Origin: Candidatus Cryptobacteroides choladohippi
Lineage (GTDB): Bacteria; Bacteroidota; Bacteroidia; Bacteroidales; UBA932
Reading direction: 5' to 3'
Assembly: GCA_018065985.1 (NCBI GenBank)
Contig: JAGHSF010000059.1
Span: 1 to 64,000, forward strand
Length of the DNA: 64,000 bases
Of the stretch, positions 30,309 to 41,758 are shown one piece after another. The notes below the pieces were generated by a model. It did no database searches and was not told where the DNA came from. It was given only the letters and a program-made list of their open reading frames with translations. The position numbers and the translations under genes are program-made. The number at the start of each line of letters is the position of its first letter. The first letter of the stretch is position 1.

Positions 30309-32012
30309 ATGAGAAAATTTCTGTTTGCCACGCTTGCTCTCGCAACGTTGCTGAGTTTCCGTGCGGGTGCCTGCACCAACGTCATAATCACGAAGGGCGC
30401 CAGTTCAGACGGATCCTGCATGGTTTCCTATGCTGCCGACTCGCACTGGCTCTACGGCGAACTGTATTTCAATCCCGCTGCCGACCATGCAAGGGGATCA
30501 AAGCTTCCCATCGTGGAGTGGGACACATACAAGCCCCTCGGATCGATAGCGCAGGTGGAGCATACCTGCCAGACCATGGGCAACATGAACGAGCATCAGC
30601 TCATCATAGCCGAGACCACCTGGGGCGGCCGTGACGAGTTGTCAGACCCGGCCGGCATCATGGACTACGGCAGCCTCATTTACGTGACCCTGCAGCGTGC
30701 AGAGACGGCTCGTGAGGCCATCCAGACCATAGTCGGGCTCGCAAACGAATACGGATACCCCTCAAGCGGCGAGACCTTCAGCATCGCTGACAAGGACGAG
30801 GCCTGGATCATGGACCTCATTGGCAAGGGACCCGACAACAAGGGCATAGTGTGGGTTGCGCGCCGCATACCCGACGGTTACGTCTGCGCACATGCAAACC
30901 TCTGCCGCATAACCACTTTCCCCTGGGATGACCCCGACAACTGCCTCTTTGCACCCGACGTTGCCGAGTTTGCCCGCAGCAAGGGATGGTACAGCGGCCC
31001 CGACGAGGAGTTCAGTTTCAGGGCGGCATACTGCCAGCTCGACTTCGGCGAGGTGCGTGGCTGCGACGGCCGTGTCTGGAGCGCATTCAACACCTTGGGC
31101 AAGGGCAGTTTCACATATGAGAAGGACGGGCAGGAAGTGACCATGCCTGCCGACGGCTGGCTCGACTATGCCATGGGCTACGACCTGGAAGGCGAGCTGC
31201 CCCTGTGGGTGAAACCTGCTGCGAAAGTCACCCCGAAGACCCTTGCCGACGTCATGCGCGACCACTTCGAGGGCACTCCCATGGACATGCGCACCGACAT
31301 AGGCGCAGGTGGCAATGCCTGCCCTTACCGCTGGCGTCCCATGGACTTCGAGTGGGAGGGCGAGACTTATGTCAACGAGCGCGCCATCGCCACCCAGCAG
31401 ACTGGCTTCTGGTTCGTGGCCCAGGCCCGCGGATGGCTCCCTGATGCCGTTGGCGCTCTTGTGTGGTTTGGCGTCGATGATGCTGCAACCTCTTATCTTA
31501 CACCTGTTTATGTAAGTTCTACCGAGGTTCCCGAGTGCTTCCGCGAGGGCAACGGCGACCTCCTCCACTACAGCCCCACCTCTGCATTCTGGATGTGCAA
31601 CCGTGTCACCAATTCCTGCTACAGGATGTACAATCAGATGGAGCCCGTCGTGCGCAGGGAGATCGATGCATACGAATATGACATGATGTTCGACCGTGTT
31701 CCCAAGTTCGACGACCTTCTCTGCCGCACCCTTTCCAAAGGGGGCAGGCGTGCGTTGAAGAAGACCCGCAAGGCCATGACCGCCTTCAGTGTCGACAACG
31801 CCCAGAGGCAGTTCAGGAACTGGGTGGAACTCGAGGAGCTGCTCACCGTCAAGTTCATCGACGGCAACGTGAAGGCACAGGATGCCGACGGCAAGTTCCT
31901 TCATTCACAGTATCATGCCGGAACTCCCGAAGGTCTGGAGCAGCCCGGCTACACAGACTTCTGGAAGAAGGCGGTCGCCTGGTTCCACGGAAAAACGGTA
32001 AAGGTTCAGTAA
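30309..32012 (+). CDS. C69-family dipeptidase
   Basis: 567 aa; signal then ACTNVIITKGASSDGSCMVSYAADSH. Confidence 0.93.
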   Translation: MRKFLFATLALATLLSFRAGACTNVIITKGASSDGSCMVSYAADSHWLYGELYFNPAADHARGSKLPIVEWDTYKPLGSIAQVEHTCQTMGNMNEHQLIIAETTWGGRDELSDPAGIMDYGSLIYVTLQRAETAREAIQTIVGLANEYGYPSSGETFSIADKDEAWIMDLIGKGPDNKGIVWVARRIPDGYVCAHANLCRITTFPWDDPDNCLFAPDVAEFARSKGWYSGPDEEFSFRAAYCQLDFGEVRGCDGRVWSAFNTLGKGSFTYEKDGQEVTMPADGWLDYAMGYDLEGELPLWVKPAAKVTPKTLADVMRDHFEGTPMDMRTDIGAGGNACPYRWRPMDFEWEGETYVNERAIATQQTGFWFVAQARGWLPDAVGALVWFGVDDAATSYLTPVYVSSTEVPECFREGNGDLLHYSPTSAFWMCNRVTNSCYRMYNQMEPVVRREIDAYEYDMMFDRVPKFDDLLCRTLSKGGRRALKKTRKAMTAFSVDNAQRQFRNWVELEELLTVKFIDGNVKAQDADGKFLHSQYHAGTPEGLEQPGYTDFWKKAVAWFHGKTVKVQ

Positions 32013-32013
32013 G

Positions 32014-32460
32014 ATGCTTCTGTCAAAAAGAATAGCGGTTTGCCTCAATCTGGCTGCATGCAAGCTCAAACAGTATACCGCAGCCCAGCTGAAGCGTTGC
32101 AATGTAGGTCTCACTCCCGAGCAGTTCCTGCTCATCGACATCCTCTGGAACCAGGGTCCCATGTCTCAGCAGAGCGTGGCCGACCTCATGCAGAAGGACA
32201 AGAACTCCATCACCAAGCTGGTGGATGCTCTCGAGAAGAAGGGTCTTGTGATGCGTAAGAAGGATGTGACCGACAGGCGCTCGAACCTTATCGTGCTCAC
32301 TTCCGAAGCCGAGGATCTGAAATTCGGTGCGAAGGAGACAGGCATCTCCATACTCGACAGCATCCTCGAGGGAATCAGCGAGGAGGAACTGGAGAACTTC
32401 CTCGGCACGCTTGCCAAGCTTACGGGAAACATGGAGCTGAAGATTCTGAGCGAGGGCTAG
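32014..32460 (+). CDS. MarR-family regulator
   Basis: 148 aa; winged HTH SQQSVADLMQKDKNSITKLVDALEKKGLVMRKKDVTDRRSNLIVLT. Confidence 0.94.
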   Translation: MLLSKRIAVCLNLAACKLKQYTAAQLKRCNVGLTPEQFLLIDILWNQGPMSQQSVADLMQKDKNSITKLVDALEKKGLVMRKKDVTDRRSNLIVLTSEAEDLKFGAKETGISILDSILEGISEEELENFLGTLAKLTGNMELKILSEG

Positions 32461-34259
32461 CAGCTCTCGTCGAGAATCTCTGCAATATCCTTTACCGGGC
32501 GGTCGGCGTATCGTCCGAATGTGCTCATGCACAGGGGACAGCCGGTGGCTATGGCATCGGGTGCATCCTTGACAAGGTCATCCAGGGCATTCCTGGTCAT
32601 CGCCTCCCTCTGGGCGAATCCCAGCGTCAGACTTCCAAGGCTGCCGCCGCAGCATATGCTCTCTGCATGGTTGTGGCCGGCTTCCCTGAGCTCGGCACAG
32701 CGTCCCAGCAGATCCCTTGGCGCTTCGTAGATGCCGCTGCCGCGTCCCAGTTCGCAGGGGTCATGCCAGACCACTGAACCGCTGCCTTTGACGGGCGAGA
32801 GCTTGCCCAGCCTGACAAGTTCGTCGAAGTACTGGCTGTGGTGTATCACCCTCACTCCGGGAAGGCTGTAGTGCTCCCTGAAGATCTTGTAGCATATGGG
32901 GCAGCTGAGTATCAGCGTGTGGGCGCGGGATTCGCTGATGATCTGCTCGTTCTTGCGTATCAGCTGCTTGGCCTCGCCTATCTTTCCTGCGGTGAGCATG
33001 GGCCTTCCGCAGCACAGTCCGCCGTCGCGGTCCATCCACACATAGTTGACCCCGGCCTTTTTCAGCACCGACTCCACCGCCCTGGGAATGCGGGGCGTGA
33101 GCTGGGTCATGCAGCCGGCAAAGTACAGGACCTTGGACCCTCTGGCCGCGTCTGCGAGCGGACGGGTGTCTATCCCGGAGTAGTCCTGCTCTATGCTGTA
33201 GCGTCGGGTGGCACGCTGGGCCATGCGCAGCGTCGGTCCTTCTACGCCCACCTGGCATACCGCCTGGCATTTGCCGCACAGCAGGCACTTGTCGCTTATC
33301 TCGTCCACGCGTTTTTCGTGTCCGCGCCTGATGTGCCTGTTGAGGTACACGGTGCAGTCCTTCAGATTGGCCTTCTTCACGCTCATGGGGCATGCGTCGA
33401 TGCACACGCCGCAGCTCGGGCAGCTGAAGATCTCGGCACGGGCAAATCCTCTGCGGGCGTGGCGTATGCGGAGCCCGGCGTTGCGCATGGGAATCAGCAG
33501 CATCTCTGCCGGAATGTGCATGTAGCGGGTGAACGGCAGCACGAACATGAATACGCCCAGCGCTATGGAATATGCCCACCAGGTGGGGAGCATGTTGAAC
33601 TCGTTGCCGAGGAACTGCCTTGCCATCCAGTTGAGCGGAATGGTCATGAAGGAACCGCCGCTGATATGGGCTGTAAAGCCCTCTGCCAGCCATCTGAGCG
33701 GAAATATGGCCCACAGGGCATACTGGCCTATGAGATCGAGGAAAGACGGCCTCGTGGTCCTTCTCATGCCGAATATGAGCGAGCGGAAGCGCTTGATGAC
33801 CGCCAGTGCTATGCCCACCAGCACCACAAGCAGGAAAAAGTCCATCAGGAAGAAGAGTACCGAGCCTTTCACGGTGCTGTCGGCCTCTGCCACGAAGTAG
33901 TTGAAGAAGATGGGGTAGTAGAAGAACTTTATGCGCTCAGGCACGAAGAGGATCACCTCCACATGGCCCAGCACTATTAGCATGAACCATCCGAAGGCTA
34001 TGCTTGAGTGCATGAAGCCCAGCATGGGGTTGCGCTTCCACAGCTTGACATGCAGCAGACAGTTGAGAAAGATGTCCTTCACGTTCTTCACCGCCGTTTC
34101 CGGGGTGATGAGGGACTTGTAGAACTGAAGCCTGTCCTCCCTCGGGAGCTGCAGAAGTATCTTCAATATACCGTAGATGCAGTAGCCGAACACGAAGAAC
34201 ATTCCTGCCAGGAAGGGCAGGACGAAGGGGTGGAATCCTGATGCTATCCTGTCTATCAT
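32457..34259 (-). CDS. HdrD/HdrE-like membrane Fe-S protein
   Basis: Start at MIDRIASGFHPF; NarI-like TM region, CPSCGVCIDACP and CLLCGKCQAVC clusters, CCGRPM and CCGGSLG CCG motifs. Confidence 0.9.
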   Translation of the reverse strand: MIDRIASGFHPFVLPFLAGMFFVFGYCIYGILKILLQLPREDRLQFYKSLITPETAVKNVKDIFLNCLLHVKLWKRNPMLGFMHSSIAFGWFMLIVLGHVEVILFVPERIKFFYYPIFFNYFVAEADSTVKGSVLFFLMDFFLLVVLVGIALAVIKRFRSLIFGMRRTTRPSFLDLIGQYALWAIFPLRWLAEGFTAHISGGSFMTIPLNWMARQFLGNEFNMLPTWWAYSIALGVFMFVLPFTRYMHIPAEMLLIPMRNAGLRIRHARRGFARAEIFSCPSCGVCIDACPMSVKKANLKDCTVYLNRHIRRGHEKRVDEISDKCLLCGKCQAVCQVGVEGPTLRMAQRATRRYSIEQDYSGIDTRPLADAARGSKVLYFAGCMTQLTPRIPRAVESVLKKAGVNYVWMDRDGGLCCGRPMLTAGKIGEAKQLIRKNEQIISESRAHTLILSCPICYKIFREHYSLPGVRVIHHSQYFDELVRLGKLSPVKGSGSVVWHDPCELGRGSGIYEAPRDLLGRCAELREAGHNHAESICCGGSLGSLTLGFAQREAMTRNALDDLVKDAPDAIATGCPLCMSTFGRYADRPVKDIAEILDESC

Positions 34260-34579
34260 TTCTTTTCGTATGTTCTGCAGATGCTGAGAATGAGATGGCG
34301 GGTGTTGATGCCTCTGGGGCATACCATGGTGCATTTGCCGCAGAGCATGCAGCAGGAGAGCATCCCTGACACGTCAGTGCCGCGCTGCAGGCCGAGTATG
34401 ACCTTGCGCATGCTCATTCCGGAATACTGCCCGGCGGTGCAGGTGGCGCTGCAGCTTCCGCACGCCATGCATGTCTTCATGTCCGGCTCCAGCCTTTCGA
34501 TCTTCCTGTACAACGAGAGGTCGGCCCTGTCAAGATCGATGGTCGAGCTTGGGGAAAGTCTGAATCCGAATTCCATCAT
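34256..34579 (-). CDS. HdrC-like 4Fe-4S protein
   Basis: Start at MMEFGFRLS; CMACGSCSATCTAGQ and CMLCGKCTMVCPRG; overlaps neighbours by 4 bp on each side. Confidence 0.9.
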   Translation of the reverse strand: MMEFGFRLSPSSTIDLDRADLSLYRKIERLEPDMKTCMACGSCSATCTAGQYSGMSMRKVILGLQRGTDVSGMLSCCMLCGKCTMVCPRGINTRHLILSICRTYEKK

Positions 34580-35586
34580 CTGCTGAGGTAATTGAATATG
34601 CTGAGTGCGGCGGCGCGGGCTTCCGCAACCGTCTCCGGAACCGTCTTGGTGCCTGTGCATGCTCCCGCGAAGAAGATTCCGGGCTTCTGCGACTCCAGAA
34701 TGCTGTAGATGTTGTCCTTGCTGCGCAGGAAACCGTCCGTATCGACTTCGACGTGCAGCATGTCGGCGATGCTCGTTGCAGACGGGTTGCACTGCATGCC
34801 CGCCATGAGGCAGAGGCAGTCCATCTGAATCTTGAGGGGCTTGCCGCTGAGCGTGTCCTCTGCCTTGACCTGCACGCGGCCGTCTATGGTCTCGCTGACC
34901 TCGCTGACGCGTCCGCGGATGAACCGGATGCCGTAGTCGCGCTGCGCGTTGAGGTAGAAGTCCTCGTATTTCTTGCCGAAGAGGCGAAGGTCCATATAGA
35001 AGCAGAAGACCTCGCAGCCGGGGAACTTCTCCTTGATCTCGATGGCCTGCTTGATGGCTGTCATGCAGCATACCTTGGAGCACTGGGTGTTGCCGGCCTT
35101 GATGTCCCTGGACCCTACGCAGTGCACGAAGCCGAAAACTTTCGGTTCCCTGGGGATGCGCAGGTCCTCGGCTCCGGCGAACCAGTTCTCGAGGTCCCTG
35201 TTGGTTATCACATGGTCATAGACCCCGTAGCCGTATTCCTCCTTCTTTGCGGCATCGAACAGCTTGAACCCGCTGGCAATGAGCACGGCGCGGCTGAGGA
35301 TGTTCACACCGTTCGAGAGCATTACGGCATAGCCGTCCTTCAGGCGGTTGATGCTCTGCACCGTGGTCTCCAGGAAGATGTTGGCTTCCCTGCAGCTTTC
35401 CACGAGTTTTGCAACCAGTTCCCTGGCCGGCGTCATGTCGGGGAACAGCCTGTGCCAGCAGGCAACGTGTCCGCCAAGGTGGTCGGACTGCTCCACGATT
35501 ATGGGACGCAGGCCCAGCGACAGCATTTGCCTGGCTGCTTCAAGTCCGGCGACTCCTCCGCCTATGATGATGACGTTCTCTTTCAT
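34576..35586 (-). CDS. HdrA-like FAD/NAD-binding oxidoreductase
   Basis: 336 aa; VIIIGGGVAGLEAARQM, FVHCVGSRD, CSKVCCMTAIKQAI. Confidence 0.92.
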   Translation of the reverse strand: MKENVIIIGGGVAGLEAARQMLSLGLRPIIVEQSDHLGGHVACWHRLFPDMTPARELVAKLVESCREANIFLETTVQSINRLKDGYAVMLSNGVNILSRAVLIASGFKLFDAAKKEEYGYGVYDHVITNRDLENWFAGAEDLRIPREPKVFGFVHCVGSRDIKAGNTQCSKVCCMTAIKQAIEIKEKFPGCEVFCFYMDLRLFGKKYEDFYLNAQRDYGIRFIRGRVSEVSETIDGRVQVKAEDTLSGKPLKIQMDCLCLMAGMQCNPSATSIADMLHVEVDTDGFLRSKDNIYSILESQKPGIFFAGACTGTKTVPETVAEARAAALSIFNYLSR

Positions 35587-35589
35587 AAA

Positions 35590-36660
35590 CTAATGACATT
35601 TAAGCACTTGTGGCATCTCAGGACGGAGGAGGTCCTCCTTGTTGAGACCCAGATACTTCTCTGAAGGCTTGTATTCGATTCCTATCTTGTCAAGGAAAGG
35701 CTCCACTGCCACCTGGTGAACCTGAAGGCCAAGGTCCCAGGGGTTCTCTCCCAGCACCAGACCGGCAAGTTCCTCATAGGTGAACACAGGAATGCCGTAT
35801 CCGTTCTGGCCGTAGGTCTTGCCTGTCTGCTCGGCTATCACATACTGCCAGCGGTCCAGGAAATATGGGCATCCGGGGCAGTTGGTGATGATTGCGTCAG
35901 GATGGTAAGGCTCCATCGACTCGAACTTCTTGTGGGTGTTCGACACGCAGTAGCCTCTGTTGGCCTTTACGAGGTACTGGCGGAAACCGAATCCGCAGCA
36001 GTGCCGGCGCTCGGGGTAGTCGATAACCTGGCCTCCCCAGCTCTCCACCATTCCGCTGAGCACGCAGGGATATTCCGCCCCTCCCACACCCTTGTGGGGG
36101 AACATCTTGGAATAATGGCAGCCTATGTGCTCGACTATCTTCAGGGGCTCTCCCGTCTCCTTGTCCACCAGGCGGTACTGCGCGTTCTCGGCAATCTGGT
36201 TCCTGAACTTGTAGACAAGGTCGCTTGCATGAGCTATATACTTGGGAATCTTGAATTCCCGGCGGCATGCCTTCCACAGGTTCTCACGTATCCTTGCCTC
36301 CAGTTCCGGGAACTCCCTCCATGTCTCGATGGTCTCGGTGTAGTTTCCGAAGGAAGTTATGCAGGACACCACCAGATTGTCGTATCCGCACTCGGTCATG
36401 AGGGCGAACTGGCGCGCGACAATGGTCATGGCAGTCTCCTGAGGTATGGTGTCGGAATGGTAGGCTATGCCTCCGCAGGTGGTATGGTGCTCGTTGTCGC
36501 AGATGTCCTTTCCCAGGAGATCGCGGCATATCTTCAGAAAGTATTTCTCGCTTGCCGGGAAAAAACTCTGACGTATGCAGCTGCGTGCATAGTACCAGTG
36601 GTCATCGGGGATGTCCTTCTGGTAGTCCGACCATATTTTCTGTTTGCCTTGATAGATCAT
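35590..36660 (-). CDS. HdrB-like cysteine-rich (CCG-domain) protein
   Basis: 356 aa; GCHYSKMFP..RRHCCGFGFRQY...TNCPGCPYFLDRW. Confidence 0.88.
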   Translation of the reverse strand: MIYQGKQKIWSDYQKDIPDDHWYYARSCIRQSFFPASEKYFLKICRDLLGKDICDNEHHTTCGGIAYHSDTIPQETAMTIVARQFALMTECGYDNLVVSCITSFGNYTETIETWREFPELEARIRENLWKACRREFKIPKYIAHASDLVYKFRNQIAENAQYRLVDKETGEPLKIVEHIGCHYSKMFPHKGVGGAEYPCVLSGMVESWGGQVIDYPERRHCCGFGFRQYLVKANRGYCVSNTHKKFESMEPYHPDAIITNCPGCPYFLDRWQYVIAEQTGKTYGQNGYGIPVFTYEELAGLVLGENPWDLGLQVHQVAVEPFLDKIGIEYKPSEKYLGLNKEDLLRPEMPQVLKCH

Positions 36661-36662
36661 TT

Positions 36663-37400
36663 TCAGTCGTTGTTGAAGTGAATGTCGGAGCAGTGCTCGA
36701 AGGTATGCCTGCGATACTCTTCCATGCTCATACCCATCTCCTCAGCCTTCTTTCGGGAGAATTCCTCCACCAGTGCCGTTCTTTCGGTGCCTCCGCTGAC
36801 GTCGAAGATGGCCTTGAGTTCCGACATGTCCTCGGGAGCGATCTGCCTGAGGGCACCGGGACCCTTTCCCTTGTAGTTGGCTCCCATCCTTGCATAGCTT
36901 GCCTCCTTGTGCTCGAGGTGCCATTTCCATACGGGGCCCGACTCGGGGTGATCCTCGAACCTGAAGGTGTCGGGGTATACGCAGTAGCCGTATTCCAGGA
37001 TATTCCTGTTGATGGCTTCGGTAAGCGGGTAGATCTGCCTTCCCCTCTCGGACTCGGTGAAGTATCCCAGCTTGACGGAGAGGTTGCGCAGGGCCATGAT
37101 GACCTTGCCCGGGGCATTGCTTCTGGGGCATCGCGTCATGCAGGACATGCATTCCCCGCAGTACCAGATGGTCTCGCTCCGCAGCAGGGCCTCTATCTCG
37201 CTGTCATCCTTGCGCTGGACCGTATCCACGATCTTTCGCGGGTCATAGCGGTAGAACTCCGCAGCAGGGCATATGGCTGTGCAGGTTCCGCAGTTTATGC
37301 AGGCCTTCAGGCCTTCGCGGAATCTGTAATCCTTGCACAGCTCGTCATACAGTTTCGTTGTCACTATACAGGTTTCAGTTTTCTTGCCAATCTCGAGCAT
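36663..37400 (-). CDS. HdrC-like 4Fe-4S dicluster protein
   Basis: 245 aa; CINCGTCTAICPAAEFY, CGECMSCMTRCPRSNAP. Confidence 0.9.
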   Translation of the reverse strand: MLEIGKKTETCIVTTKLYDELCKDYRFREGLKACINCGTCTAICPAAEFYRYDPRKIVDTVQRKDDSEIEALLRSETIWYCGECMSCMTRCPRSNAPGKVIMALRNLSVKLGYFTESERGRQIYPLTEAINRNILEYGYCVYPDTFRFEDHPESGPVWKWHLEHKEASYARMGANYKGKGPGALRQIAPEDMSELKAIFDVSGGTERTALVEEFSRKKAEEMGMSMEEYRRHTFEHCSDIHFNND

Positions 37401-38140
37401 AGTCCCGGGAAGAAGCGCTTGATGTACACCATCAGCAGTTCCTTGCGCCCGACCAGGACTTCTCTTTTTCCCTTGCTTATCGCACGGGTGATCCTGCGTG
37501 CCGCCGTCTTCACGTCAAGTCCGCCGGCCTGGCCGGGGTCCATCTTTCCGTAGCGGGCGCCGCCCTCCACCAGTGCGTTCATTGAAATGTTCGTCTGTAC
37601 CCTCCCGGGGCACACCATGGTGACATCTATCTCCCTGTGCTCGGCCGCCAGAGTCTCGAAGAATCCGTACAGTGCAAACTTCGACGAGCTGTATCCGCAT
37701 CTGAGAGGAAAGCCGAAGCGGCCAGCTATGGAGCTTGTCACGGCAATCTTCCCGCCGCCCTGCGAGAGCATCAGGGGAAGAATGGCCTTGCTTATCGCTA
37801 CAGGGGCGAAGAAGTTGATTTCCATGATTTTGCGTATGGTCTCCATGGAGGTGTCCTCGATGCGTGTGCGCTGGCTTACCCCGGCGTTGCAGAACAGTAT
37901 GTCAAGCCCGGAGAAGGCCTCCCATGCCTGCTGGCAGAGAGCGTCGATCCCGGATGCATCCTGAAGGTCGAACGGCAGGACCACCGCGCCCCCGGCTCCG
38001 ATACGCATGCAGCCGTCGGCCACTCTCTGAAGCCTGTCGGCGGAGCTGGCCGTGAGCACGAGGCAGGCGCCCTGCGCGGCGTACTCGTACGCGCAGGCTT
38101 CCCCTATCCCCGAAGATGCCCCTGTGATCCAGACTTTCAT
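37364..38140 (-). CDS. Short-chain dehydrogenase/reductase (candidate keto-sulfonolipid reductase)
   Basis: 258 aa; WITGASSGIGEACAYEYA, FCNAGVS, YSSSKFAL; role inferred from neighbours. Confidence 0.9.
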   Translation of the reverse strand: MKVWITGASSGIGEACAYEYAAQGACLVLTASSADRLQRVADGCMRIGAGGAVVLPFDLQDASGIDALCQQAWEAFSGLDILFCNAGVSQRTRIEDTSMETIRKIMEINFFAPVAISKAILPLMLSQGGGKIAVTSSIAGRFGFPLRCGYSSSKFALYGFFETLAAEHREIDVTMVCPGRVQTNISMNALVEGGARYGKMDPGQAGGLDVKTAARRITRAISKGKREVLVGRKELLMVYIKRFFPGLCSRLARKLKPV

Positions 38141-39351
38141 GCCAGTACTGCTTTTCTGAATCCGGTGTTACGCTCCGACCCTTCGCCCATGTTGACGGAA
38201 ACCACGTCTCCGTTGTGGATGAGGCCTTCCTCGAGAGCCTTGAGGAATCCGGCGATGCAGACCATTGCTGCCGGTCCGGGGATAACTCCCGTGTTTTCGT
38301 GAATCCATCTTGCCAGTTCCACGAGGCTGTCTTCCTTCACTCTCACGAAGGATCCGCCGCTCTTGTGAACGATGGGAGCCACGATGGGGAACATTCCGGG
38401 CGTGCCGGTCGAGAGAATGGAGATCGAGGTGCGTGGTGTGACGCTTGGGAAGTCCTTCTCCCAGCCTTCGGGGAAGCCTTCGCTCCTGGCTTTCTCCCAG
38501 CCGAGGACCATGGGGTCGCAGGTATCCTGCTGCGCAAGTATCATCCTCGGCAGCCTGACGTCCATACCCTGGGCATTCAGCTCGCGCACGCCTTTGTCAA
38601 GCGCTATGGGGGCTGTTCCGCCGCTCACGGCCTGCACATAGACATCCGGCATCCTGCCTATCTGGCGGAGGTACTCGAACACGAGTGTTCTCTTGGATTC
38701 CACGCGTATGGGGTCGATGTTGCCTGCGGTCATCAGGGTTCCGGTCTGCATGCTGAATGCGGCGGCCTCCTTCTTGGCATCGGCGTAGTTGCCTTGCGAG
38801 ATGCGCAGGTCCTGCCTGTGCGACATGATGGTCAGGGCGGTGTCCGGGGAGACGTCGCAGGGCACGAAGATGGTGAATTTCACATCAGCCTCGGCACAAT
38901 AGCGGCTGAAGGCTGTGGCGGTGTTTCCTGTCGATGCGGCGCAGAAGTGCTTCACGCCCCATTCCTTGAAGAGGGATGCACCCAGTGCCGCAGCGGGGTC
39001 CTTGAAGGTGCCGGTGCCGCCCGAGAGGTCGGAACGTGACACAAGCGGAGTGCAGTCTATGCCGTACTTCTGCTTTGCGTAGTCCTTGAGGCACTTCCAT
39101 TCCTCGAAGGGAACGGCGCCCTCGCCGAGGGTGACGATGTTCTCGCGATGCTCCAGAGGAAGAAAGTCGAACCAGTGGAAGAGGTTCTCGGCCTTCCGGC
39201 TGCAGAGTTCGGGCAGTTTCGCGTAGTCGGCAAAGTATCTTGCCTCCGCCCTCTGGCAGCCGCATGTGCATTTCTGCCCTTCGGCGAACCACTGGCCAAA
39301 GCTCTCTATCTCCCGCCCGCAGGATGTACAGTAAAGGTGATATTTCGCCAT
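38137..39351 (-). CDS. PLP enzyme, threonine synthase-like (candidate cysteate synthase)
   Basis: 404 aa; N-terminal zinc-ribbon (YCTSCGRE..CTCGCQ), SGGTGTFKDPAAALG, STGNTATAFSRYCAEA; cysteate synthase role from context. Confidence 0.85.
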   Translation of the reverse strand: MAKYHLYCTSCGREIESFGQWFAEGQKCTCGCQRAEARYFADYAKLPELCSRKAENLFHWFDFLPLEHRENIVTLGEGAVPFEEWKCLKDYAKQKYGIDCTPLVSRSDLSGGTGTFKDPAAALGASLFKEWGVKHFCAASTGNTATAFSRYCAEADVKFTIFVPCDVSPDTALTIMSHRQDLRISQGNYADAKKEAAAFSMQTGTLMTAGNIDPIRVESKRTLVFEYLRQIGRMPDVYVQAVSGGTAPIALDKGVRELNAQGMDVRLPRMILAQQDTCDPMVLGWEKARSEGFPEGWEKDFPSVTPRTSISILSTGTPGMFPIVAPIVHKSGGSFVRVKEDSLVELARWIHENTGVIPGPAAMVCIAGFLKALEEGLIHNGDVVSVNMGEGSERNTGFRKAVLA

Positions 39352-39354
39352 GTA

Positions 39355-40620
39355 CTAGTGGATTAGGGCCATGTCTGGCATTTCGTGGTCGTATTCGCCG
39401 CGCTCGAGCCTCTCCTTGATGTCCTTGAATGCGGCCAGTGTACGGTCCACATCCTCGATGGAGTGCGCTGCGGTGGGGATTATGCGGAAGATGAGCATTC
39501 CCGGGGGAATGACGGGGTAAGTCACGATAGAGCAGAAGATGCCGTAGTTCTCTCTGAGGTCCACAGCGATGTTGGAGGCCTGGTTCACACCGCAGTAGAG
39601 GTGTACCGGGGTCACGCATGCCTCTGCGGGTCCGATTTCGTATCCGAGTTCGCGGAAGCCTTCCTGCAGTCTGCGGGTCACCTTCCAGAGCTGGGCTCTG
39701 AGCTGGTCTCCCTCGGCGCTGCGTATGATCTCGAGACGCTTCAGACAGCCCTCGACTATGGGCATGGGAAGGCTCTTTGCGTACATCTGCGAGCGCATGT
39801 TGTATCGCAGGTAGTTGATGATGTCCTTGTCTGAAGCCACGAATCCGCCAATGGTTGCCATCGACTTGGCATAGGCGCCGATGTAGAGGTCGATGCCGTC
39901 CATCACGCCGAAGTGTTCGGAGGTGCCGCGGCCGTTCGGACCCATTACGCCGAAGCCGTGGGCATCGTCGATGAGTATGCGGAAACTGTATTTCTTCTTC
40001 AGTGCAACTATCTGGTCGAGTATGCCGAGTGCGCCTGTCATGCCGAACACACCCTCGGTGATGAGGAGCACGCCGCCGCCGTTGGCGTCAGCCTCCTCAG
40101 TGGCCTTCTTGAGCTTCTGCTCGCAGGATGCAATGTCGTTGTGCTTGAATTTGTACACGCTTCCCATATGCATGCGCACGCCGTCGATGAGGCAGGCATG
40201 TGCTTCGGAGTCGATCACGACCACATCGTGGCGGCTCAGAAGGGAATCTATGGTGGAGACTATGCCCTGATATCCGAAGTTGAATTCGAAGGCGGCCTCC
40301 TTGCACTCGAACTCGGCAAGCTCGCGCTCGAGCCTCTCGTGCAGTTCGGTCTGGCCTGTCATCATGCGGCTTCCCATAGGGTATGCCATACCCCAGCGTT
40401 CAGCTGCCTGAGCGTCTATCTTTCTGATTTCAGGGTGATTGGCGAGTCCGAGGTAGTTGTTCAGACTCCAGCAGAGCACTTCCTTTCCGTTGAAGCGCAT
40501 GTGGGGGCCAAGCTCTCCCTCAAGTTTAGGGAAAGCGAAATAGCCGTCAGCCCTGTCTCTGTACTGTCCTATCGGTCCTCCCGAGGACTTTCTGATCTTG
40601 TCAAAAATGTCTACTTGCAT
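39355..40620 (-). CDS. Alpha-oxoamine synthase (serine palmitoyltransferase / cysteate acyltransferase type)
   Basis: 421 aa; NNYLGLANHPEI, DDAHGFGVMGPNGRG, GAYAKSMATIGGFVA. Confidence 0.92.
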   Translation of the reverse strand: MQVDIFDKIRKSSGGPIGQYRDRADGYFAFPKLEGELGPHMRFNGKEVLCWSLNNYLGLANHPEIRKIDAQAAERWGMAYPMGSRMMTGQTELHERLERELAEFECKEAAFEFNFGYQGIVSTIDSLLSRHDVVVIDSEAHACLIDGVRMHMGSVYKFKHNDIASCEQKLKKATEEADANGGGVLLITEGVFGMTGALGILDQIVALKKKYSFRILIDDAHGFGVMGPNGRGTSEHFGVMDGIDLYIGAYAKSMATIGGFVASDKDIINYLRYNMRSQMYAKSLPMPIVEGCLKRLEIIRSAEGDQLRAQLWKVTRRLQEGFRELGYEIGPAEACVTPVHLYCGVNQASNIAVDLRENYGIFCSIVTYPVIPPGMLIFRIIPTAAHSIEDVDRTLAAFKDIKERLERGEYDHEMPDMALIH

Positions 40621-40622
40621 AT

Positions 40623-41696
40623 TTATCTGATTTTTTCTTTTGATACTAGTCCCATCATCCTGAAGAGGAATTTTGGAAGCCTCTTTCTCGGGTCGCGTTT
40701 TTTCATGTCAATGTACCAGCCCAGTTTCTTGGCCACCGGAATGCTGTGGGTCTCGACGAACTCGATGAGGGTGCCGTCGGGATCCTCTATGTAGGTGAAG
40801 TGGCCTGAGGCGTCGCCCATGTCGAAGACTTTGCCTCCCGGGCAGCTGTCGACGGTGAACGGATGACCTTTGCTCTCGCAGAACATTCCCAGTTCCTTCA
40901 TTCCCGTCACATCGAAGCAGATCTGGATGAAGCCGGGGTCACCCCAGAAGCGTCCCTCGTATATCTTGCGGGGGTTACGGTCCAGCGCCTGCACCAGTTC
41001 GATCGTGTTCTGCCCGAACAGACCGCAGAATGCCCCCTGGCGCTCCTTTGCTGTTCCGAGCAGCACGCGGCGGTACCTCTGGTAACCGTACGGGAACGGT
41101 CCCAGGTCATCGAAGGTGCCTGTCGTGTCGTAAATGACTTTGTCGAATCCGAGCACCTCGGAGTAGAACTTCACCGATCTGTCGATGTCGGTGACGCCGA
41201 CGACTGCACCTGTGATTCCGCCGGTGAGGCGGTTCTGCTCGATGAAGACACTCCTGTCCTCGACTATCTGGAAGAAGTTGCCGTACAGGTCCCTGACGAT
41301 GAAGGTGCGTGTTCCGTCGGGAAGAGACGACACTTTGCCGCAGTCTGTCCATTTCCGGGTTATCTCGTTGTGGAACGCTTCCACGTCGCGGCATTTCACC
41401 TTTGCGGCAAAGATGCCGAGGTCGCCTGCGGCAGGCTCAAAGGGGCAGGGTACGGGCTTGCGCTCCGAGTATTGCCATATCTCAAAGCCGCCGCCTCCCT
41501 GCAGGCTGATGGCTATGCATGCGTGTCTTTTCTGCGGGACACCACCGGTGTAGGGAAGCATACGCTCGGCTACCGTGTCGTCCTCGAGAATCTTGACGTC
41601 GATGCCGAACATCTCGATGAACCAGTTCCAGGACTTGCGGAAGTCCATGGTTCCCACACCCACCTGCTGTATGCCTGAAATGAAGAAATCGTTCAT
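40623..41696 (-). CDS. VOC-superfamily protein (HPPD/glyoxalase-like, four-module)
   Basis: 357 aa; VGVTDIDRSVKFYSEVLGFDKV, DPDGTLIEFVET; tandem bicupin-like architecture. Confidence 0.82.
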   Translation of the reverse strand: MNDFFISGIQQVGVGTMDFRKSWNWFIEMFGIDVKILEDDTVAERMLPYTGGVPQKRHACIAISLQGGGGFEIWQYSERKPVPCPFEPAAGDLGIFAAKVKCRDVEAFHNEITRKWTDCGKVSSLPDGTRTFIVRDLYGNFFQIVEDRSVFIEQNRLTGGITGAVVGVTDIDRSVKFYSEVLGFDKVIYDTTGTFDDLGPFPYGYQRYRRVLLGTAKERQGAFCGLFGQNTIELVQALDRNPRKIYEGRFWGDPGFIQICFDVTGMKELGMFCESKGHPFTVDSCPGGKVFDMGDASGHFTYIEDPDGTLIEFVETHSIPVAKKLGWYIDMKKRDPRKRLPKFLFRMMGLVSKEKIR

Positions 41697-41698
41697 TT

Positions 41699-41750
41699 TA
41701 GTAAAAGCATTTACTATTTATATCTGCAAATATAGTAAACGGTTTTACTA
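41699..41750 (-). promoter_or_regulatory. Two palindromic operator candidates TAGTAAA-N4-TTTACTA
   Basis: Exact arms at 41699-41705/41710-41716 and 41733-41739/41744-41750, 34 bp centre to centre. Confidence 0.75.
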
Positions 41751-41758
41751 ACGCCAAA
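41727..41758 (-). promoter_or_regulatory. Bacteroidota promoter for the VOC-to-Hdr operon
   Basis: Minus strand TTTG (41758-41755), 20-nt spacer, TATATTTG (41734-41727). Confidence 0.75.

Follow-up and report, generated by a model that had tools for sequence, protein, structure and literature searches.

What controls the operon that runs leftwards from position 41696 of this DNA, and what are the two palindromes in its promoter for? The window (the whole 64,000-nucleotide stretch analysed) had been given a preliminary description in which the palindromes were read as operators of a dimeric repressor rather than as an RNA hairpin. The regulator was left open there, with mention of a MarR gene at the far end of the operon. 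Our analysis favours a specific answer: we put at about 0.87 the probability that the palindromes are operators of the dimeric MarR-family repressor encoded by that very gene (32014-32460).

The palindromes and their promoter

The motif TAGTAAA-N4-TTTACTA occurs twice with perfect 7-bp arms, as 18-bp elements at 41699-41716 (TAGTAAAAGCATTTACTA) and 41733-41750 (TAGTAAACGGTTTTACTA), exactly as first described. The promoter comprises the following elements, of which the two boxes were read from the sequence.

41755-41758, minus strand: -33 box, TTTG
41733-41750, plus strand: predicted operator 1, TAGTAAA-CGGT-TTTACTA, between the -33 and -7 boxes
41727-41734, minus strand: -7 box, TATATTTG, overlapping operator 1 by 2 bp
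41699-41716, plus strand: predicted operator 2, TAGTAAA-AGCA-TTTACTA, in the leader, 2 bp before the ATG

Read along the minus strand, the promoter consists of TTTG (41758-41755), 20 nt, TATATTTG (41734-41727), a short leader and an ATG at 41696; 20 nt between the -33 and -7 boxes is the usual arrangement in Bacteroidetes. The upstream palindrome fills the gap between the boxes, in agreement with the preliminary description, and has 2 bp in common with the -7 box. The downstream palindrome covers the 5' leader, also as described, and its distance to the ATG is 2 bp rather than the 3 bp given previously. The reported separation of 34 bp holds as a start-to-start distance and leaves 16 bp between the inner ends.

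Whole-genome site searches were performed as mismatch scans, whilst the weight matrix introduced below was applied to the window and to selected loci. No other match with up to three mismatches was present in the window, where shuffled sequences predict 0.31, and a pattern scan of the 2,244,493-base genome placed its sole exact copies at these two positions. A motif frequent at unrelated AT-rich sites, a possibility raised at the outset, was therefore not what the scan of this 2.24-Mb genome found. Among 398 genomes of the family, 50 contained an exact match to the palindrome and six a match to the reversed control pattern.

Conservation was assessed at 118 loci carrying the first operon gene, which encodes a VOC/glyoxalase-fold protein, counting sites with up to two mismatches within 150 bp of the start. 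Such sites preceded the VOC gene in the window and in L046, L063, L017, L018/L147, L019/L054, L258/L149, L070, L020, L259, L257/L148, L084, L086, L083 and L256, with several of these loci displaying two sites, or one plus a partial second. Most other VOC loci of the 118 had no site within these limits. The window's 34-bp pair recurred at 34 bp in L046 and L083 and at 35 bp in L256 and L020, and L277 also carried two sites 35 bp apart. In many relatives a single full site was present, and where there were two copies they lay 15 to 37 bp apart. Conservation upstream of orthologous operons, on which the preliminary description had staked its interpretation, is thus present in other species of the family.

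These observations bear on two ways of dispensing with a DNA-binding protein. The arms are AT-rich, as would be expected if the palindromes had arisen by chance in an AT-rich promoter, but two exact copies were found against 0.31 expected in the window with up to three mismatches, and both the conservation and the cross-prediction by the matrix contradict this reading, whose probability we consider negligible. Alternatively, the palindromes might act in RNA as leader hairpins, serving as an attenuation or stability element. They can fold, and pairing between the two copies could yield a longer stem-loop (-18.1 kcal/mol), but the single hairpins are weak (-4.6 and -3.7 kcal/mol) and the upstream palindrome lies outside the expected transcript. 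An attenuator or riboswitch would have both elements in the transcript and conserved folding. This is not the arrangement here, since the upstream copy sits between the promoter boxes, and copy number and spacing vary among relatives. A role in RNA is accordingly very improbable. On the strength of the genome scan, conservation, matrix and folding energies, we rejected both readings. Identical arms, free spacers and sites conserved before the genes of one pathway fit the operator of a dimeric regulator, not an RNA hairpin, and it is because sites are kept before the orthologous operon and, in other genera, before other genes of one coherent pathway that we support the original operator interpretation.

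The MarR gene and the promoters of its homologues

Two genes at the far end of the operon are relevant to the identity of the regulator.

32014-32460, plus strand: MarR-family regulator, proposed repressor (PF01047), convergent with the last operon gene
30309-32012, plus strand: C69 dipeptidase (PF03577), directly upstream of marR

The MarR assignment and convergent orientation given in the preliminary description were confirmed. The protein matched PF01047 at 60.2 bits (cut-off 24.6), indicating that the MarR winged-helix domain is present, and none of the NCBIfam MarR equivalogs reached its cut-off against it. Alignment of the subfamily, of which the window's genome encodes one member, revealed a nearly invariant recognition-helix segment (KDKNS) and DRR wing. 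The alignment contained no invariant cysteine, which makes it unlikely that all members share a thiol switch. The C69 gene is probably co-transcribed with marR. A C69 gene also directly precedes an operator-YeiH unit in another genus (L130-L145), and this neighbour has no obvious link to sulfonolipids.

MarR homologues less than 55 % identical to the window's protein, here termed cousins, provided 78 distinct promoters. A site with up to three mismatches was located within 60 bp of the ATG in 67 of these, compared with 2.8 % in dinucleotide shuffles, and was absent within the same limits from the other 11. The gap to the ATG was 6 bp in 58 cases and 16 bp in eight, and the sites lay just downstream of, or on, a TAnnTTTG box. 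The consensus was TAGTAA-N6-TTACTA, with A/T adjoining the arms. A weight matrix was built from 55 unique cousin-promoter sites, none of them drawn from the window or from any VOC promoter. This matrix ranked the two window palindromes first (41699-41716, 32.0 bits) and second (41733-41750, 29.7 bits), with the next best position at 11.0 bits. Taken with the cousin-promoter sites and the nearly invariant recognition helix, this ranking is our strongest reason to think that both sites are recognized by the MarR of the window.

Sites in a homologue's own promoter are documented mainly among the cousins (35-52 % identity) and, in addition, in L263, a close relative at 66 % identity. In the window itself, the marR promoter carries no operator of the TAGTAA-N6-TTACTA type, and most marR promoters of the VOC-linked clade are likewise without the palindrome. 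In six of the latter (L261, L260, L166, L258, L259 and L162), TACTGTATA or TATACAGTATA is found just before the ATG instead, perhaps as a diverged autoregulatory site.

Co-occurrence was examined using a homologue threshold of E ≤1e-15. MarR homologues were detected in 106 of the 398 family genomes, and in 47 of the 50 with an exact palindrome (p 1e-27, phylogeny being ignored). At genus level, all seven palindrome genera fell within the 14 MarR genera of 25 (p about 0.007, hypergeometric). The association persisted among sulA-bearing genomes (45/46) and in all five VOC-bearing genomes with a site before the VOC gene (G000, G011, G044, G049 and G080). No MarR was detected in three motif genomes, and in G275, one of these, the motif falls within a coding sequence. 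Close MarR homologues adjoin the operon in L046, L055, L070, L083, L084 and L086, yet L055, for which some 150 bp could be inspected, displayed no site. In a sample of 247 genomes of the order from outside the family, a few other families had distant MarR homologues, at loci without a comparable site (best 9.4 bits); at this sensitivity, the MarR-operator system looks confined to this family.

The palindromes could still belong to another dimeric regulator, either a TetR or a different MarR, with the neighbouring MarR acting elsewhere. The lack of a site in the window's own marR promoter would agree with this, and a cell might hold two proteins that bind similar DNA sequences. However, the site recurs at a constant distance from the ATG in promoters of genes homologous to this marR, the recognition helix of the protein is conserved, the MarR is present in nearly all motif genomes, and a second regulator would need to track it across seven genera. 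We consider such a regulator quite improbable, and the MarR encoded by 32014-32460 has become the clear favourite because its homologues show this autoregulation pattern.

If this MarR is the repressor, a dimer on each palindrome would block RNA polymerase and keep the operon off until a small molecule freed the promoter. A spacing of 34 bp would correspond to some three turns of the helix between the dimers, making cooperative binding possible. Some MarR proteins are activators, and this one might activate or counter repression once bound, or act in opposite directions at the two palindromes. Such behaviour is unlikely here, given that each site covers part of the promoter or of the start region, where repressors classically bind, and the sites in the marR promoters are placed likewise.

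The sulfonolipid operon and a proposed wider regulon

The operon presumed to be under MarR control comprises the following genes, all on the minus strand.

40623-41696, minus strand: VOC/glyoxalase-fold protein, gene 1 (PF00903; orthologues found)
39355-40620, minus strand: SulA/cysteate fatty-acyltransferase (CFAT), gene 2 (PDB 7u7h, E 1e-170; 28eh)
38137-39351, minus strand: PLP enzyme of the threonine synthase/cysteate synthase group, candidate cysteate-forming enzyme (PF00291; below the TIGR03844 cut-off)
37364-38140, minus strand: short-chain dehydrogenase (SDR), candidate 3-ketocapnine reductase (PF00106; role suggested by the operon)
36663-37400, minus strand: HdrC-like 4Fe-4S protein (NF041779, below cut-off; orthologues with the same operator in L146 and L135)
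35590-36660, minus strand: HdrB-like CCG-domain protein (PF02754)
34576-35586, minus strand: HdrA-like flavoprotein, partial-length HdrA (NF040770 match)
34256-34579, minus strand: small 4Fe-4S protein, the last 107 codons of ORF 34256-35083 (from the translation)
32457-34334, minus strand: membrane protein with 4Fe-4S and two CCG domains, start uncertain, last operon gene (PF02754 twice, PF13183)

The best PDB matches of gene 2 were 7u7h and 28eh ('cysteate-C-fatty acyltransferase'), with serine palmitoyltransferases scoring far lower. We take 7u7h to be the Alistipes finegoldii SulA structure of PMC9304779. Judged by these matches, gene 2 (39355-40620) is SulA/CFAT, the first committed step of sulfonolipid synthesis, and the 'lipid' operon of the preliminary description can be sharpened accordingly: by gene content, VOC-SulA-PLP enzyme-SDR-HdrCBA is a sulfonolipid operon.

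The PLP enzyme scored 126.8 bits against the TIGR03844 cysteate synthase model (cut-off 324.9), and it falls between the threonine synthase and cysteate synthase models. In sister operons of other MAGs, its place is taken by a TIGR03844 cysteate synthase (421-441 bits), with L052, L074 and L083 passing the cut-off. The window's enzyme (38137-39351) is thus only a candidate for forming cysteate, and it may represent a second, non-orthologous cysteate-forming enzyme. The HdrCBA-like genes and the membrane CCG protein (34256-37400 and 32457-34334) accompany sulfonolipid genes across the family.

MarR-led operons in relatives displayed several related arrangements, including MarR-HdrC-HdrB-HdrA-4Fe4S in several genera, where homologues of the small 4Fe-4S protein (34256-34579) come after HdrA. 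MarR-cysteate synthase was present in g22, and MarR-FNT transporter-cysteate synthase-SulP in g11, the representative cysteate synthase of g11 matching TIGR03844 at 460.8 bits; in some of these g11 operons the marR promoter has no clear site. Sites unlinked to marR were identified before YeiH-type transporters (PF03601) in g11 and G049, before a porin adjoining a YeiH gene in g22, before other porins, and before HdrC-HdrB in L135 and L146. Genome G049 encodes one MarR of the subfamily and has five sites with at most one mismatch, four of them at VOC-SulA, HdrC, YeiH and AMP ligase-ACP genes and the fifth with no assigned target.

Three further groups of sites were observed. The AMP ligase-ACP site (L272 2575-2592; G049:C33) lies directly upstream of genes for an AMP ligase, an ACP and a protein of 225+ aa that has no family match and an acyltransferase-like look; these are candidates for capnine N-acylation. 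A site in the window's own genome (L283 2444-2461; C7:5443-5460), seen also in L274 and L281, scored 22.3 bits, overlaps a TATATTTG box and is 14 bp before a gene for an SBF/bile-acid-symporter-family transporter (PF01758), which adjoins a PlsC-like acyltransferase (PF01553). A site accompanies the transporter-acyltransferase pair in G244 and G031 as well, which makes the pair a probable additional regulon member. Another site in this genome (L284 2226-2243; C66:69725-69742), TTGTAAGAAATTTTACTA, scored 26.0 bits, ends on a TATATTTG box and precedes a 51-codon ORF and a secreted-protein gene.

Sulfite is a substrate of archaeal cysteate synthase. In Salmonella, resistance to sulfite depends chiefly on YeiH (PMC12880088), and together these point to a regulon theme of sulfite to cysteate to sulfonolipid. 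Since the wider target set (YeiH, cysteate synthase, SulP, porins, SulA and Hdr) revolves around cysteate and the handling of sulfite, sulfite or a sulfonate made from it is the likeliest inducer, at rather less than even odds. More tentatively, a dedicated MarR sensor of sulfite (or of cysteate/sulfonate) might run a family-wide regulon for sulfite uptake, export and fixation, with Hdr as an unrecognised part of the pathway. Sulfite would then be fixed into cysteate and sulfonolipids, and the Hdr complex would supply, for example, sulfite or electrons. Many genomes carry sulA without this MarR, so it is not the universal regulator of the sulfonolipid pathway, and other control must exist.

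Sulfonolipids of gut Bacteroidales affect host inflammation (PMC9304779, PMC11211663). A named candidate regulator and a defined operator make the timing of their production testable. The operator may also be used as a search tool for missing pathway steps, for instance the origin of the sulfite and the N-acylation that completes the pathway, for which the candidates under it are the Hdr genes, YeiH, the SBF transporter with its acyltransferase, and the acyl ligase-ACP genes.

Relation to known systems

A literature search on sulfonolipid or sulfobacin regulation and MarR found no regulator or operator for sulfonolipid or cysteate genes, and a text search of PMC9304779 and PMC11211663 found no description of an operon or of gene regulation. 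A MarR repressor with a palindromic operator is a known arrangement; its use for this sulfonolipid/cysteate regulon appears to be unreported.

The closest mechanistic parallels are the autorepressors MarR, OhrR, HpaR and SlyA, which share the PF01047 winged helix and palindromic operators of about 16-20 bp over the promoter (predicted here). As with these proteins, relatives of the window's MarR appear from sequence to be autoregulated, and the regulator gene adjoins its target operon. The present system differs in its TAGTAA-N6-TTACTA operator, KDKNS segment and sulfonate/sulfonolipid targets. The YeiE-YeiH sulfite response of Salmonella (PMC12880088) similarly has an autoregulated DNA-binding regulator controlling the YeiH transporter, but YeiE is a LysR-type activator, whereas here we find a MarR protein, a different operator and a regulon that also includes cysteate and sulfonolipid genes. 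Gene 2 is a homologue of the SulA/CFAT of Alistipes finegoldii and Chryseobacterium gleum (PMC9304779, PMC11211663). In A. finegoldii the kcr genes are not clustered with cfat and cys (PMC11211663), in contrast to the operon described here, in which sulA, the SDR and the cysteate-synthase-like gene are found together with hdr genes and a regulator. Lastly, sHdrR and SoxR of Hyphomicrobium (PMC12423496) are also repressors linked to Hdr-like and sulfur genes; those are ArsR-type proteins concerned with sulfur oxidation, whereas the window's candidate is a MarR protein associated with sulfonolipid synthesis.
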